From Candidatus Sulfopaludibacter sp. SbA4 (GTDB taxonomy: Bacteria; Acidobacteriota; Terriglobia; Bryobacterales; Bryobacteraceae): 39,033 nt of DNA. The first letter of the stretch is position 1, and the number at the start of each line of letters is the position of its first letter. Below are positions 498 to 6,107 of this stretch, piece after piece. The position numbers were made by a program, and so were the translations under genes. Under the pieces are notes generated by a model, which saw only the letters and a list, made by a program, of their open reading frames with translations, had not been told where the DNA came from and made no database searches. Location: the NCBI GenBank assembly GCA_900290305.1, contig OMOG01000004.1, positions 5,860 to 44,892 on the forward strand. The letters run 5' to 3'.

Positions 498-897
498 CTC
501 GGCCACTTAGCTACTTCGCCCGAATCGCCACCCAGGCGTTGTGGTTCTCGTTTCCAAAAACCGGAACTAAGTTCCGATCGGTCAACGGGGAATCAACCGC
601 TTACGGACGAGAACCGGAACCGACTCCCGGTTTCGGGACGAAGCCAACATCGATGCCGCCGGTCCCTCGCCACCCGCTGCGGCGCCCATCGATCCCCCCA
701 AACAGGGGGGTGACGCAAATTGTAAAAATGACCCTCAATTTGCGCCTCCCAAACTCGACGCCTCTTCGCAACTCACAGAAACAGAGGAGGTTAAAGCACC
801 GTGAAAAATGAACTGACACACTCGAAGAATTTGCGCCTCCCGGCTGCCTCATGGCCCTAGGAATCGCCCCATTAACATTATTAATACCTAGAGCCAC
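498..897. other. Gene-free stretch with short hairpins and a repeated 14-mer
   Basis: No frame here has a convincing start and codon pattern. It contains a C6/G6 hairpin at 694-710 and a 9-bp inverted repeat with arms at 714-722 and 736-744. The 14-mer AATTTGCGCCTCCC occurs at 737-750 and again at 828-841. One forward frame (568-804) is open but has no ATG, GTG or TTG start and is probably a remnant or chance. The last ~30 bases before 900 become AT-rich, as expected ahead of a promoter. Confidence 0.45.
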
Positions 898-926
898 TTG
901 CATTTGGAAAATTTGTAAGATAAACT
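898..926 (+). promoter_or_regulatory. Possible promoter of the ilv leader
   Basis: TTGCAT at 898-903 and TAAACT at 921-926 are separated by 17 bases in an AT-rich stretch (about 871-935) within GC-rich surroundings. The matches to the sigma-70 consensus are only moderate (3/6 and 4/6). This would start the transcript close to the leader ATG at 944. It is a weak call based mainly on position. Confidence 0.3.
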
Positions 927-943
927 CGTAGTTTAGTTCCACG

Positions 944-1045
944 ATGTCCCCTAGTCTCACAGGCCGGCGCTTCCTCCTCTCCAGCACCATCGCTATTCCT
1001 GTAGGCATTATTATTCTCCTGGTCATCGTAGCCGGCCCCGCTTAG
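944..1045 (+). CDS. ilv operon leader peptide (33 aa, attenuator control peptide)
   Basis: This small open frame runs from ATG 944 to TAG 1043-1045 and encodes 33 residues. Eleven of the 14 residues from 16 to 29 are Ile, Leu or Val (core VGIIILLVIV). An in-frame stop at 929-931 fixes the start. It ends 93 bases before ilvB and is followed at once by a strong terminator hairpin. Size, composition and position match the known ilvL and ivbL leader peptides of enterobacteria, in which ribosome stalling at scarce branched-chain codons prevents termination. No good Shine-Dalgarno is visible. The peptide could be mistaken for a membrane segment, but the context favours attenuation. The assignment is inferred; the composition and layout are seen directly. 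Confidence 0.75.
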   Translation: MSPSLTGRRFLLSSTIAIPVGIIILLVIVAGPA

Positions 1046-1072
1046 GCCAGCAGGAACTGGGTTCCCAAGGCC
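1034..1072 (+). promoter_or_regulatory. Competing pause and antiterminator hairpins of the ilv attenuator
   Basis: GGCC occurs at 1034-1037 (inside the last leader codons), 1045-1048 (at the leader stop) and 1069-1072 (inside the terminator's 5' arm). The first two can form a 1:2 hairpin. The second and third can form a 2:3 antiterminator, reinforced by an inner 5-bp stem (1053-1057 with 1061-1065). A ribosome held at the Ile/Val codons near 1025-1030 would cover the first arm and favour 2:3. One that reaches the stop would cover the second arm and release the terminator. The stems are short, so this is a plausible rather than proven fold. Confidence 0.5.
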
Positions 1073-1110
1073 ATCGGCGGGGTAAACAGACCCAGCCGAT
1101 GGCCTTTTTT
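1067..1110 (+). terminator. Attenuator terminator upstream of ilvB
   Basis: A perfect 12-bp stem (1067-1078 with 1095-1106), with a further GGG/CCC pair in the loop region, is followed by six T residues at 1105-1110. It lies between the branched-chain-rich leader peptide and ilvB, so it would control readthrough into the operon rather than end an upstream gene. Confidence 0.8.
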
Positions 1111-1138
1111 GTTATACGACTGATTTGAGGCAAACATT

Positions 1139-2904: not shown

Positions 2905-3435
2905 ATGATGCAAGTAATTTCCTTACTCTTGGAAAACAAGCCCGGCGCCCTGATGCGGGTCACCGGCCTGCTCAGCCAGCGCGGTTACAACATCGAGAGC
3001 CTCACGGTCGCGCGCACTCTCGATCCGGAGGTTTCCCGGATGACCATCGCGGTCGAGGTGGAGACCGCTCAGCGTCAGCAGGTCATCAAGCAGATGAACA
3101 AGCTGATCAACGTGCTGCAGGCCACCGACCTCACCGAACTGCCGTCGGTGATGCGCGAACTGGTGCTGGTGCGCATTCGCATGCCGCAGGAGACGCGGCA
3201 GGCCGTGTTGAAGGAGGCCGAGATCTTCGGCGGGCGGGTCGTGGATTCCTCCACCGAAGGATTCGTGATCGAGGTGACGGCCGATCCCGAGAAGCTGGGC
3301 GAGTTCATCGACGTGATGGGAAGCTATGGCGAAATCGAAGTGGCGCGCTCGGGAGCGCTGGTCATCGCGCTCGACCCCAAGAAGCTGAAGCTGCAGCCGC
3401 CCGTGCTGACAAAGAAACTGGAAGAGGTCTACTGA
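2905..3435 (+). CDS. ilvN: Acetolactate synthase, small regulatory subunit
   Basis: The 176-residue protein starts with an ACT domain ([20 protein letters not shown], residues 6-25) typical of the valine-sensing small subunit, followed by the usual C-terminal domain with an FGGRVVD-type element around residue 108. It binds IlvB, raises its activity and confers end-product inhibition. Two ATGs stand in tandem (2905 and 2908), and either could start the protein. No strong ribosome site is visible in the short gap after the palindrome. ilvC starts three bases after its stop, so the two are probably translationally coupled. Confidence 0.95.
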
Positions 3436-3437
3436 CA

Positions 3438-4457
3438 ATGCCAAGACGCTTTTACGAAAAAGACGGGAACCTGGAACACTTGAGCGGCCGCACCGTGGCC
3501 ATCGTCGGATACGGAAGCCAGGGCCACGCCCATGCGCTGAACCTGCGCGACTCCGGCGTGGACGTGGTGGTCGGGCTGTACGCCGGCAGCAAGTCGTGGG
3601 CCAAGGCCGAGGCCGCGGGACTCAAGGTGCTCACCGCCAGCGAGGCCGCCAAGGCCGCCGATGTCGTCATGATCCTGGTGGCCGATCACATTCAGGCCGA
3701 CCTGTACAACCAGGAGATCGCGCCCCACATGACGGCGGGCAAGACGCTGATGTTTGCGCACGGATTCAATATCCACTTTCAGCAGATCGCGCCCCCCAAG
3801 GACGTGGACGTGTCGATGGTGGCGCCCAAGGCGCCCGGCCACCGCGTGCGCGAGCTGTACACGGAAGGCGTGGGAGTGCCGGCGCTGGTGGCGATCCATC
3901 AGGACGCTTCGGGGCACGCGCTCGAGCGCGCCCTGGCGTATGCTCTGGCGCTGGGCTGCCTGAAGGCCGGGGTGATCGAGACCAACTTCCGCGAGGAAAC
4001 CGAGAGCGACCTCTTCGGAGAGCAGTCGGTCCTGTGCGGAGGCGCGAGCGAGTTGGTCCGCGCGGGATTTGAAACGCTCGTCGAGGCGGGCTACGCCCCG
4101 GAGATCGCGTACTTCGAGTGCCTGCACGAGCTGAAGCTGATCGTCGACCTGATCCAGGAAGGTGGCTTGGGCTACATGCGCTACTCCGTCTCGGACACCG
4201 CGGAGTACGGCGACTACACGCGCGGCCCGCGCATCGTCAACCAGCAGACCCGCGCCGAGATGAAGAAGATCCTGGCCGAGATCCAGTCGGGTGAGTTCGC
4301 CCGCCAGTGGATCGAGGAAAACAAGACCGGCCGCAAGAATTTCCTCGCCATGCGCGAGGCCGCGCAAAATCAGCCCATCGAAAAGGTCGGCAAGGAACTG
4401 CGCGAAATGATGACGTTCCTGAAAAAGAAAAAAGAAGTAGGAGTACCGGTGGCGTAA
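3438..4457 (+). CDS. ilvC: Ketol-acid reductoisomerase (class I)
   Basis: The 339-residue length and single C-terminal domain identify the short class I enzyme. It isomerises and reduces acetolactate or acetohydroxybutyrate with NAD(P)H and Mg2+. The Rossmann motif [17 protein letters not shown] begins at Gly24. The metal-binding [10 protein letters not shown] segment and the later [11 protein letters not shown] helix are present. The ATG at 3438 follows the ilvN stop by two bases; longer upstream reading is rejected because it runs through ilvN in another frame. The coenzyme-specificity loop reads GLYAGSKSW; the sequence alone does not settle NADH versus NADPH preference. Confidence 0.97.
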
Positions 4458-4496: not shown

Positions 4497-6107
4497 ATGA
4501 AAATCTTTACCTTCGATACGACCCTTCGCGATGGAACGCAGGGCGAATCCATCTCGTTCTCCGTGGATGACAAGCTCGTCATTGCGCAAAAGCTGGACGA
4601 ACTGGGCATCGACTACGTCGAGGGCGGCTGGCCCGGGTCCAACCCCAAGGACAAGGAGTTCTTCGCGCGCGCCGCGGAGCTGAATCTGCGTCATGCCAGG
4701 CTCACCGCCTTCGGGTCCACGCGCTTTGCGAAGAACCCCGTCGAAGAGGACCGCAACGTGCGCGCCCTCGTGGAGGCGGGCACTCCCGTGGTGTCGATTT
4801 TCGGCAAGACCTGGGATTTGCACGTACGGCGCGCGCTGGGCATCACCGAAGAGGAAAACCTGCAGCTCATCTCCGAGACCGTGAAATACCTGAAGGACCA
4901 CGGCAAGGAAGTGGTCTACGATGCCGAGCATTTCTTCGACGGATACCTCGCCAATCCGGATTACGCCATGCAGACACTCGATGCCGCGCACCGCGCCGGC
5001 GCCGATGTGCTGGTGCTCTGCGACACCAACGGAGGCACGGTCACTGGCCGCCTGGTCGAGATCGTGGGCGAGGTGCGGCGGCGGTTCGACGGCGTCATCG
5101 GCATCCACACGCACAACGATTCGGACGTCGCCGTGGCCAACACGGTGGCGGCCGTGGAGGCTGGAGCAACCCACGTGCAGGGGTGCATGAACGGGTATGG
5201 GGAGCGCTGCGGCAATGCCAACCTGGCCTCCGTGATCGCCAACCTGGAATTGAAGCTGGGACACACCGCCATCGGCGCGGAGAACCTCGCGAACCTCACC
5301 GCGGTGTGCCGGTTCATCGCCGAGCTGGCCAACCTGCCCCTGCGCAACGATCAACCCTTCGTCGGCAAGAGCGCCTTTGCGCACAAGGGCGGCGTGCACG
5401 TGAGCGCGGTGCTGAAAGAGGCCGCCACCTACGAGCACGTTCCACCGGAAAAAGTGGGCAACCGGCAGCGCGTGCTGGTGAGCGACCTCTCGGGCCGCGG
5501 CAACATTATGTATAAGCTGAAGCAGCACGGCTTGGCCGGACGTCTGGACGAAGACGCGCGCCGCGAGCTGCTGGAGCGCATCAAGCAGATGGAGTACGAG
5601 GGCTACGAACTGGAGGCGGCGGAGGGCACCTTCGAGCTGCTGGTGCGCGAGGCGCTGCATCCTGGGCTGCAATTCTTCGACGTGGACAGCTACGAGGTCG
5701 CCACGCGGGCCGGCGGCACGGCCCCTTCGCACACCACTGCCACCGTGACCCTGCGCGCCCAGGACGGCGTGCATTCGGCCACGGCAACCGGCCACGGGCC
5801 GTTCCATGCCCTGCACCAGTGCCTGCGCAAGTGCCTGTCCAAGCTGTATCCGCAAATCAGCGACGTACGTTTGACGGACTACAAAGTCCGCGTGCTCGAT
5901 TCGCATCAGGGCACGGCGGCCAAGGTCCGGGTGCTCATCGAGTGGAGCGACCACCGCCGGAGCTGGTCGACGGTCGGTGTCTCCGACAACGTGATCGAAG
6001 CGAGCTGGAAAGCGCTGGTCGACGCCATTCGCCTGGAACTGATGCGCCTCACGGAAAGCGACGGCTCGGTGGAGCGGGCCGTCGAAGACTACTGCTGGGG
6101 AGTGTAG
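4497..6107 (+). CDS. cimA: Citramalate synthase
   Basis: This 536-residue enzyme of the isopropylmalate/citramalate synthase family makes (R)-citramalate from pyruvate and acetyl-CoA. This opens the threonine-independent route to 2-ketobutyrate and isoleucine. The TIM barrel starts with FDTTLRDGTQGE, and the metal-binding HTH pair is at His204 and His206. The region after about residue 380 is the LeuA-type allosteric dimer domain. The EGGWPGSNPKD segment and overall length fit the citramalate branch rather than 2-isopropylmalate synthase. Being last in an ilv operon supports the isoleucine role. No good Shine-Dalgarno is seen; the palindrome ends 13 bases before the ATG. Confidence 0.92.
   Translation: MKIFTFDTTLRDGTQGESISFSVDDKLVIAQKLDELGIDYVEGGWPGSNPKDKEFFARAAELNLRHARLTAFGSTRFAKNPVEEDRNVRALVEAGTPVVSIFGKTWDLHVRRALGITEEENLQLISETVKYLKDHGKEVVYDAEHFFDGYLANPDYAMQTLDAAHRAGADVLVLCDTNGGTVTGRLVEIVGEVRRRFDGVIGIHTHNDSDVAVANTVAAVEAGATHVQGCMNGYGERCGNANLASVIANLELKLGHTAIGAENLANLTAVCRFIAELANLPLRNDQPFVGKSAFAHKGGVHVSAVLKEAATYEHVPPEKVGNRQRVLVSDLSGRGNIMYKLKQHGLAGRLDEDARRELLERIKQMEYEGYELEAAEGTFELLVREALHPGLQFFDVDSYEVATRAGGTAPSHTTATVTLRAQDGVHSATATGHGPFHALHQCLRKCLSKLYPQISDVRLTDYKVRVLDSHQGTAAKVRVLIEWSDHRRSWSTVGVSDNVIEASWKALVDAIRLELMRLTESDGSVERAVEDYCWGV

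Follow-up and report, generated by a model that had tools for sequence, protein, structure and literature searches.

A putative leader-peptide attenuator upstream of the ilvB-ilvN-ilvC-cimA operon in Bryobacterales, with leader codons that vary with operon content

Results

In this work, we analyzed a stretch of 39,033 nucleotides (hereafter, the window) from contig OMOG01000004.1 of Candidatus Sulfopaludibacter sp. SbA4, a soil-type member of the Bryobacterales in the phylum Acidobacteriota, and specifically the region upstream of its ilvB gene, for which a ribosome-mediated attenuator had been proposed in a reading of the DNA letters without database searches (hereafter, the sequence-only reading). 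The comparative evidence, namely a conserved leader together with a covarying terminator and antiterminator, sustains that proposal, and we put the probability that transcription of the ilvB-ilvN-ilvC-cimA operon is controlled here by ribosome-mediated attenuation at roughly nine in ten. The operon lies on the forward strand, 3' of the leader, and comprises ilvB (1139-2857; acetolactate synthase large subunit; NCBIfam TIGR00118, 786 bits versus a cutoff of 538), ilvN/ilvH (2905-3435; acetolactate synthase small subunit; NF008864 and TIGR00119 above cutoff), ilvC (3439-4457, with its ATG at about 3439; ketol-acid reductoisomerase; NF004017 and TIGR00465 above cutoff) and cimA (4497-6107; citramalate synthase, of the isoleucine branch; TIGR00977, 716.6 bits versus a cutoff of 450). 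Each gene thus exceeds curated cutoffs, and the operon makes the amino acids encoded by the leader: CimA produces citramalate for isoleucine, and IlvB, IlvN and IlvC are common to all three branched-chain amino acids. The assembly around the window is of the metagenome type (10.1 Mb in 790 contigs), and the nearest named relatives of its IlvB are Bryobacterales and Acidobacteria records with 74-76% identity.

The leader peptide open reading frame (ORF) runs on the forward strand from the ATG at 944 to the TAG at 1045 and encodes the 33 residues MSPSLTGRRFLLSSTIAIPVGIIILLVIVAGPA, with IAIPVGIIILLVIVAGPA as its C-terminal end. Its regulatory isoleucine, valine and leucine codons occupy 989-1030, and its stop codon 1043-1045. 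Within it, the 14-residue stretch IAIPVGIIILLVIV holds 11 isoleucine, leucine or valine residues, a density that none of 5000 dinucleotide-preserving shuffles of 898-1138 reached (mean 5.9, maximum 10). Further downstream, an intrinsic terminator of 12 bp with a 16-nucleotide loop (1067-1106; arms AAGGCCATCGGC at 1067-1078 and GCCGATGGCCTT at 1095-1106) runs into the U-run TTTTTT at 1105-1110. The minimum free energy fold contains this terminator, with a pairing probability of 0.999. Both the leader and a 12-bp terminator with a U-run followed by ilvB had been described in the sequence-only reading, and both were confirmed, with ilvB starting at 1139. A simple scan of the window for promoters and terminators detected neither this terminator nor the promoter described below; it overlooked the terminator because of the 16-nucleotide loop.

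The comparison covered the DNA upstream of ilvB in 103 other family genomes. A leader and a terminator precede ilvB in about 100 of the 104 family genomes (95 recognized by script, five by eye or model match), the leader ending in the consensus V-x-V-x-G-P-A-stop about 85-235 nucleotides before ilvB and the terminator having the form GGCCAYCGGCGGGG-loop-CCRRTGGCC, followed by a U-run. The leader search favoured ORFs rich in branched-chain residues and, therefore, the case rests on the RNA core, the promoter spacing, the position of the start codon and the compensatory changes. A covariance model built from 87 family sequences (R1) gave matches in 178 of the 200 genomes from the order, or 143 of 159 when only good-quality genomes are counted, and the leader could be annotated in most Bryobacterales genomes. 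Further R1 matches in the genome of the window (C194 and C508) were read and set aside, as they have no branched-chain amino acid leader.

In a MAFFT alignment of 87 sequences (A1), 93.6% of the cells of the terminator were paired, two-sided changes occurred in 8 of its 12 pairs, and slid-register controls paired much less often. The same alignment supports an antiterminator, whose 5' strand (segment 2, GCCCCGCU, 1035-1042) overlaps the final sense codons of the leader and whose 3' strand (segment 3, GGCGGGGU, 1076-1083) is common to the 5' arm and the loop of the terminator. The conserved core of this pairing is CCCCGC:GCGGGG. Over the seven pairs tested, 89% were paired and five showed two-sided changes, none of 500 shuffles being as high on any measure, and slid-register controls again paired far less. 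About 14 sequences carry one additional base in the arm and are left out of register by MAFFT; in a register-aware analysis, leader positions -7 to -1 paired in 87-100%, and the permutation score was 511.5 versus a mean of 439.6 (sd 7.0, maximum 469.5, 20000 permutations). Similarly, the native duplex energy was -17.6 kcal/mol versus -16.0 kcal/mol for permuted duplexes (sd 0.17). Examples of compensated pairs are UUCGCC with GGCGAA (G012), CUCGCC with GGCGAG (G088) and CCUGCU with AGCAGG (G006), and in order-mates of families f2 and f3 CCCCGG:CCGGGG replaces CCCCGC:GCGGGG. The sequence-only reading had suggested looking for conserved leaders and compensating stem changes in the ilvB upstream regions of relatives, and had named the absence of a conserved leader or terminator as an outcome contrary to it; compensating changes were found in both helices, and the contrary outcome did not occur.

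With regard to the arms, that reading had placed the alternative hairpins in three GGCC segments. GGCC is indeed present at 961-967, 1031-1037, 1045-1048 and 1069-1072, but the conserved antiterminator is 1035-1042:1076-1083, and the GGCC pairing of 1045-1048 with 1069-1072 merely extends it. The latter, together with a small hairpin (1053-1057:1061-1065), forms the predicted inner part of the antiterminator (1045-1072) in the fold of the RNA prior to synthesis of arm 4. As for the proposed arm 1 (GGCCGGC, 961-967), it can pair with 1031-1037, but by inspection only some near relatives have it, and no conservation was seen; other arms, specific to single species, may exist. A 1:2 hairpin GGGGUC:GGCCCC, attractive by eye in many genomes, was likewise tried as a conserved element and dropped, its covariation being at the level of shuffles.

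The conservation of the G-P-A ending can be traced to the fact that its codons are antiterminator segment 2, and this ending would thus be explained by RNA pairing and not by the peptide; in the N-terminal half of the peptide no conservation was found among the family leaders. These observations bear on the possibility that a constitutive terminator merely stands beside the gene of a small functional membrane peptide, with no switching. Like small membrane peptides, the leader peptide is short and hydrophobic, but the G-P-A codons and the terminator arm change in concert, a relative with an earlier stop codon (G029, L110) nevertheless retains CCCCGC after it, and the N-terminal half is unconserved, all of which makes this explanation very improbable. 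Rho-linked and translational leaders also exist, and the ORF might govern Rho access or the translation of ilvB instead of the intrinsic terminator; given that the GC-rich hairpin and U-run are conserved in nearly all members and covary, and that the ilvB start lies beyond the hairpin, we consider this hardly credible.

The terminator and the antiterminator have 1076-1078 in common, and the inner GGCC pair occupies 1069-1072 of the terminator arm, so that the two helices are mutually exclusive. In folding calculations, with arm 4 not yet made and the first free base at up to 1036, the antiterminator formed with a probability of about 1, and with the first free base at 1057, as when a ribosome stands on the stop codon, the terminator alone formed. 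The same calculations in 92 genomes gave a median of 0.99 for the antiterminator (ribosome upstream) and of 0.999 for the terminator (ribosome at the stop).

Upstream of the leader ORF, the promoter pattern TTGCATTT-N17-TANNCT is conserved in the family. In the window, it is represented on the forward strand by a -35 element TTGCAT (898-903), found exactly in 89 of 95 family upstream regions, and a -10 element TAAACT (921-926), separated from the former by a spacer that measures 17 in 83 of 91 relatives; the transcription start is predicted at about 933. In 36 of 91 genomes, 6-8 nucleotides separate the -10 element from the first in-frame start codon, a distance at which transcription itself would begin; in most of the others the separation is no more than 19 nucleotides (17 in the window). 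The RNA of most genomes would then start between 0 and about 12 nucleotides before the start codon of the leader and, because of this proximity, the leaders would be leaderless or nearly so. In addition, a palindrome ATTAACATTATTAAT (ATWA-N7-TWAT, also T-N11-A; 871-885, forward strand) lies 12 bp upstream of the -35 element. Most positions of its half-sites are 80-93% conserved among 94 family promoters, and the pattern combined with TTGCAT occurs a single time in the 10-Mb genome. This palindrome may be an operator, its T-N11-A form resembling LysR-type sites, in which case a second layer of control would act on the same promoter. In two genomes (G108 and G068; L136, L143), the TTGCATTT promoter is kept before ilvB and the leader and terminator are lost; the promoter can therefore outlast the attenuator.

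The codons of the leaders differ from those of the genes that follow them. GTA accounts for 54% of the valine codons in leaders versus 4% in the operon genes, and ATT for 60% of the isoleucine codons versus 13%; otherwise rare codons are enriched in leaders. Moreover, the leader codons vary with the location of cimA. This gene lies at most 6 kb from ilvB on the same contig in 90 genomes and, when it is in the operon, the ilvB leaders average 3.9 isoleucine and 4.6 valine in their last 20 residues (81 scored). In one clade of the IlvB tree (support 0.998) cimA is elsewhere, and the relocated gene is preceded by a separate attenuator built on the same RNA core (L322, at 403-535; L323, L324, L325, L330-L333, L335 and L360-L369). 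The leaders of relocated cimA contain 4.2 isoleucine and 0.7 valine per 20 residues (for example, MLTFLSIGIIIGAGITSPA), and the ilvB leaders of cimA-relocated genomes 0.5 isoleucine and 5.0 valine (for example, MNLSRIVVALFVVVVVGTA). An isoleucine-rich cimA leader accompanies a valine-rich ilvB leader in all eight genomes having both.

Separately, we observed that in genus g69 (G068 and G108; L374, reverse strand, and L375, at about 1190-1300) the same RNA core stands before a threonine-dehydratase-like gene, assigned by eye as ilvA, with a leader that has two isoleucine codons only and several for arginine; the ilvB leader is absent from this genus.

Discussion

Sequence comparison demonstrates the leader, the promoter, the terminator and antiterminator with their compensated pairs, and the match between leader codons and genes; ribosome stalling, the direction of the response and the start site are inferred. 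RNA starting at about 933 would have its leader ORF translated with a very short 5' untranslated region or none. When charged Ile-tRNA or Val-tRNA is scarce, the ribosome would stall within codons 989-1030 and leave GCCCCGCU (1035-1042) uncovered, allowing it to pair with GGCGGGGU (1076-1083) once the latter is transcribed; the antiterminator, the GGCC:GGCC pairing and the small hairpin would consume the 5' arm of the terminator, and the polymerase would continue into ilvB. With ample branched-chain amino acids, a ribosome at the stop codon (1043-1045) would cover segment 2, 1067-1078 would pair with 1095-1106, and transcription would stop at the U-run.

Several points weigh against this interpretation. 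The leader is absent from ilvB in G049, G068, G108, G083 and L009, the last being a named Bryobacterales record and the only closely related named one with DNA upstream of ilvB; in the IlvB tree it is placed within the clade of same-family genomes, and it belongs to the clade in which cimA is split from the operon. The 1:2 helix GGGGUC:GGCCCC shows no covariation beyond that of shuffles, so a classical 1:2 hairpin is not established and the untranslated state is not accounted for by a conserved structure. In the complete RNA, folding always favours the terminator, whose stability greatly exceeds that of the antiterminator, and read-through must therefore rest on the antiterminator forming first. 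As regards the statistics, permutations and shuffles ignore phylogeny, which the slid-register controls preserve, and the partition of isoleucine and valine codons represents one evolutionary event in one clade, so that P values counted per genome are overstated.

The split of isoleucine and valine between cimA and ilvB leaders is what codon-specific sensing would predict. It also bears on the view that the RNA itself senses a ligand or uncharged tRNA, as a riboswitch or T-box, the ORF being incidental. In its favour, riboswitches and T-boxes regulate ilv genes in other bacteria, ppGpp riboswitches being named in PMC10272879. Nevertheless, a covariance scan with Rfam 15 found no match in the window at the gathering score and, at E values up to 10, only poor and unrelated ones, none of them to a relevant riboswitch, T-box, leader (Leu, Thr, His or Trp) or ilvB motif. 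The conserved RNA, in turn, consists only of two alternative helices with a variable spacer, and the leader codons follow the controlled genes, for which a ligand pocket would have no need. Direct sensing by the RNA is, in our estimation, highly unlikely.

For ribosome-mediated attenuation, we consider it probable that the order possesses a module with a constant RNA core and retuned codons (isoleucine plus valine for ilvBNC-cimA, valine for ilvBNC and isoleucine for cimA) that was copied to cimA as this gene left the operon; in one genus, the retuned module is possibly also found at ilvA. If true, this would be a natural experiment on codon-specific sensing with leaders whose start codon lies at or close to the RNA start and in which a conserved 1:2 arm is lacking. 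Since leader codon content is tied to operon content in one clade, codon-specific sensing becomes directly testable. This retuning is the most interesting part of our results, the attenuator itself being well supported and of moderate interest.

All the features of classical attenuators that can be tested in sequence are found here as predicted elements, bar a conserved 1:2 arm. The sequence-only reading had described such attenuators as classically proteobacterial, and a case in this lineage as a widening of their range. The former was too narrow, as ilvB leader-peptide attenuators are known in Actinobacteria (PMC1262725, PMC11857589, PMC10272879) and a hisS one in Firmicutes (PMC2965389). 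The closest in character is the attenuator of Corynebacterium glutamicum ilvBNC (IlvL; "ilvB-II motif"), which shares the gene, branched-chain leader codons including a GUA control codon, and overlapping terminator and antiterminator hairpins, and for which leaderless mRNA translation has been discussed (PMC11857589, PMC10272879). It differs in phylum and sequence and in that its model has a first (antiantiterminator) hairpin, which lacks covariation support here, whereas segment 2 of the Bryobacterales element consists of the last codons of the leader. Proteobacterial attenuators (ilvGMEDA, ilvB, leu, his, thr) have in common with it a leader ORF of cognate codons, the alternation of antiterminator and terminator, and the position before the first biosynthetic gene; unlike them, the present element matches no Rfam leader family, has no conserved 1:2 arm and starts its leader at or near the transcription start. 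The ilvB-OMG and ilvB RNA motifs (Weinberg/Breaker laboratory) also include uORFs (upstream ORFs) rich in branched-chain residues before ilvB and were proposed as attenuators (PMC10272879), but no ilvB motif matched here at E up to 10 (Rfam 15). The 41 representatives of ilvB-OMG come from "various bacterial phyla" (PMC10272879), and the comparison with our element was made at the level of the Rfam models.

Terminator-based attenuators had been predicted for Acidobacteria by Naville and Gautheret in 2010, although ilvB does not appear in the main text; in that broad survey almost all predicted Acidobacteria attenuators have no associated function (PMC2965389). Among the papers searched, none treated leader-peptide attenuation together with ilvB and Acidobacteria; an earlier computational prediction may exist for this phylum. 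The regulator belongs to a known kind and, as far as could be found, is new in the phylum; it provides an attenuator of the Acidobacteriota with a mechanism supported by compensatory changes, where hardly any had been assigned a function (PMC2965389).

Beyond the order, ten genomes sampled from family f4 of the same class had no such leader and terminator before ilvB, and when ilvB loci of other phyla were scanned by a crude procedure, which would miss shorter leaders, none passed both the leader and the terminator thresholds. Other Acidobacteriota families (f12, f23 and f34; L218, L221, L222, L244, L274) carry different, unrelated-looking branched-chain leaders and terminators before ilvB. 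In two of these loci, L218 and L244, the end of the leader appears by eye to be complementary to a terminator arm (UGACGGC:GCCGUCA and GGUGGCUU:AAGCCACC).

Finally, upstream of the promoter in the window, an exact 14-nucleotide direct repeat, AATTTGCGCCTCCC, is found at 737-750 and 828-841, 91 bp apart, and its first copy also belongs to one arm of an inverted repeat with imperfect pairing (708-722/736-750).
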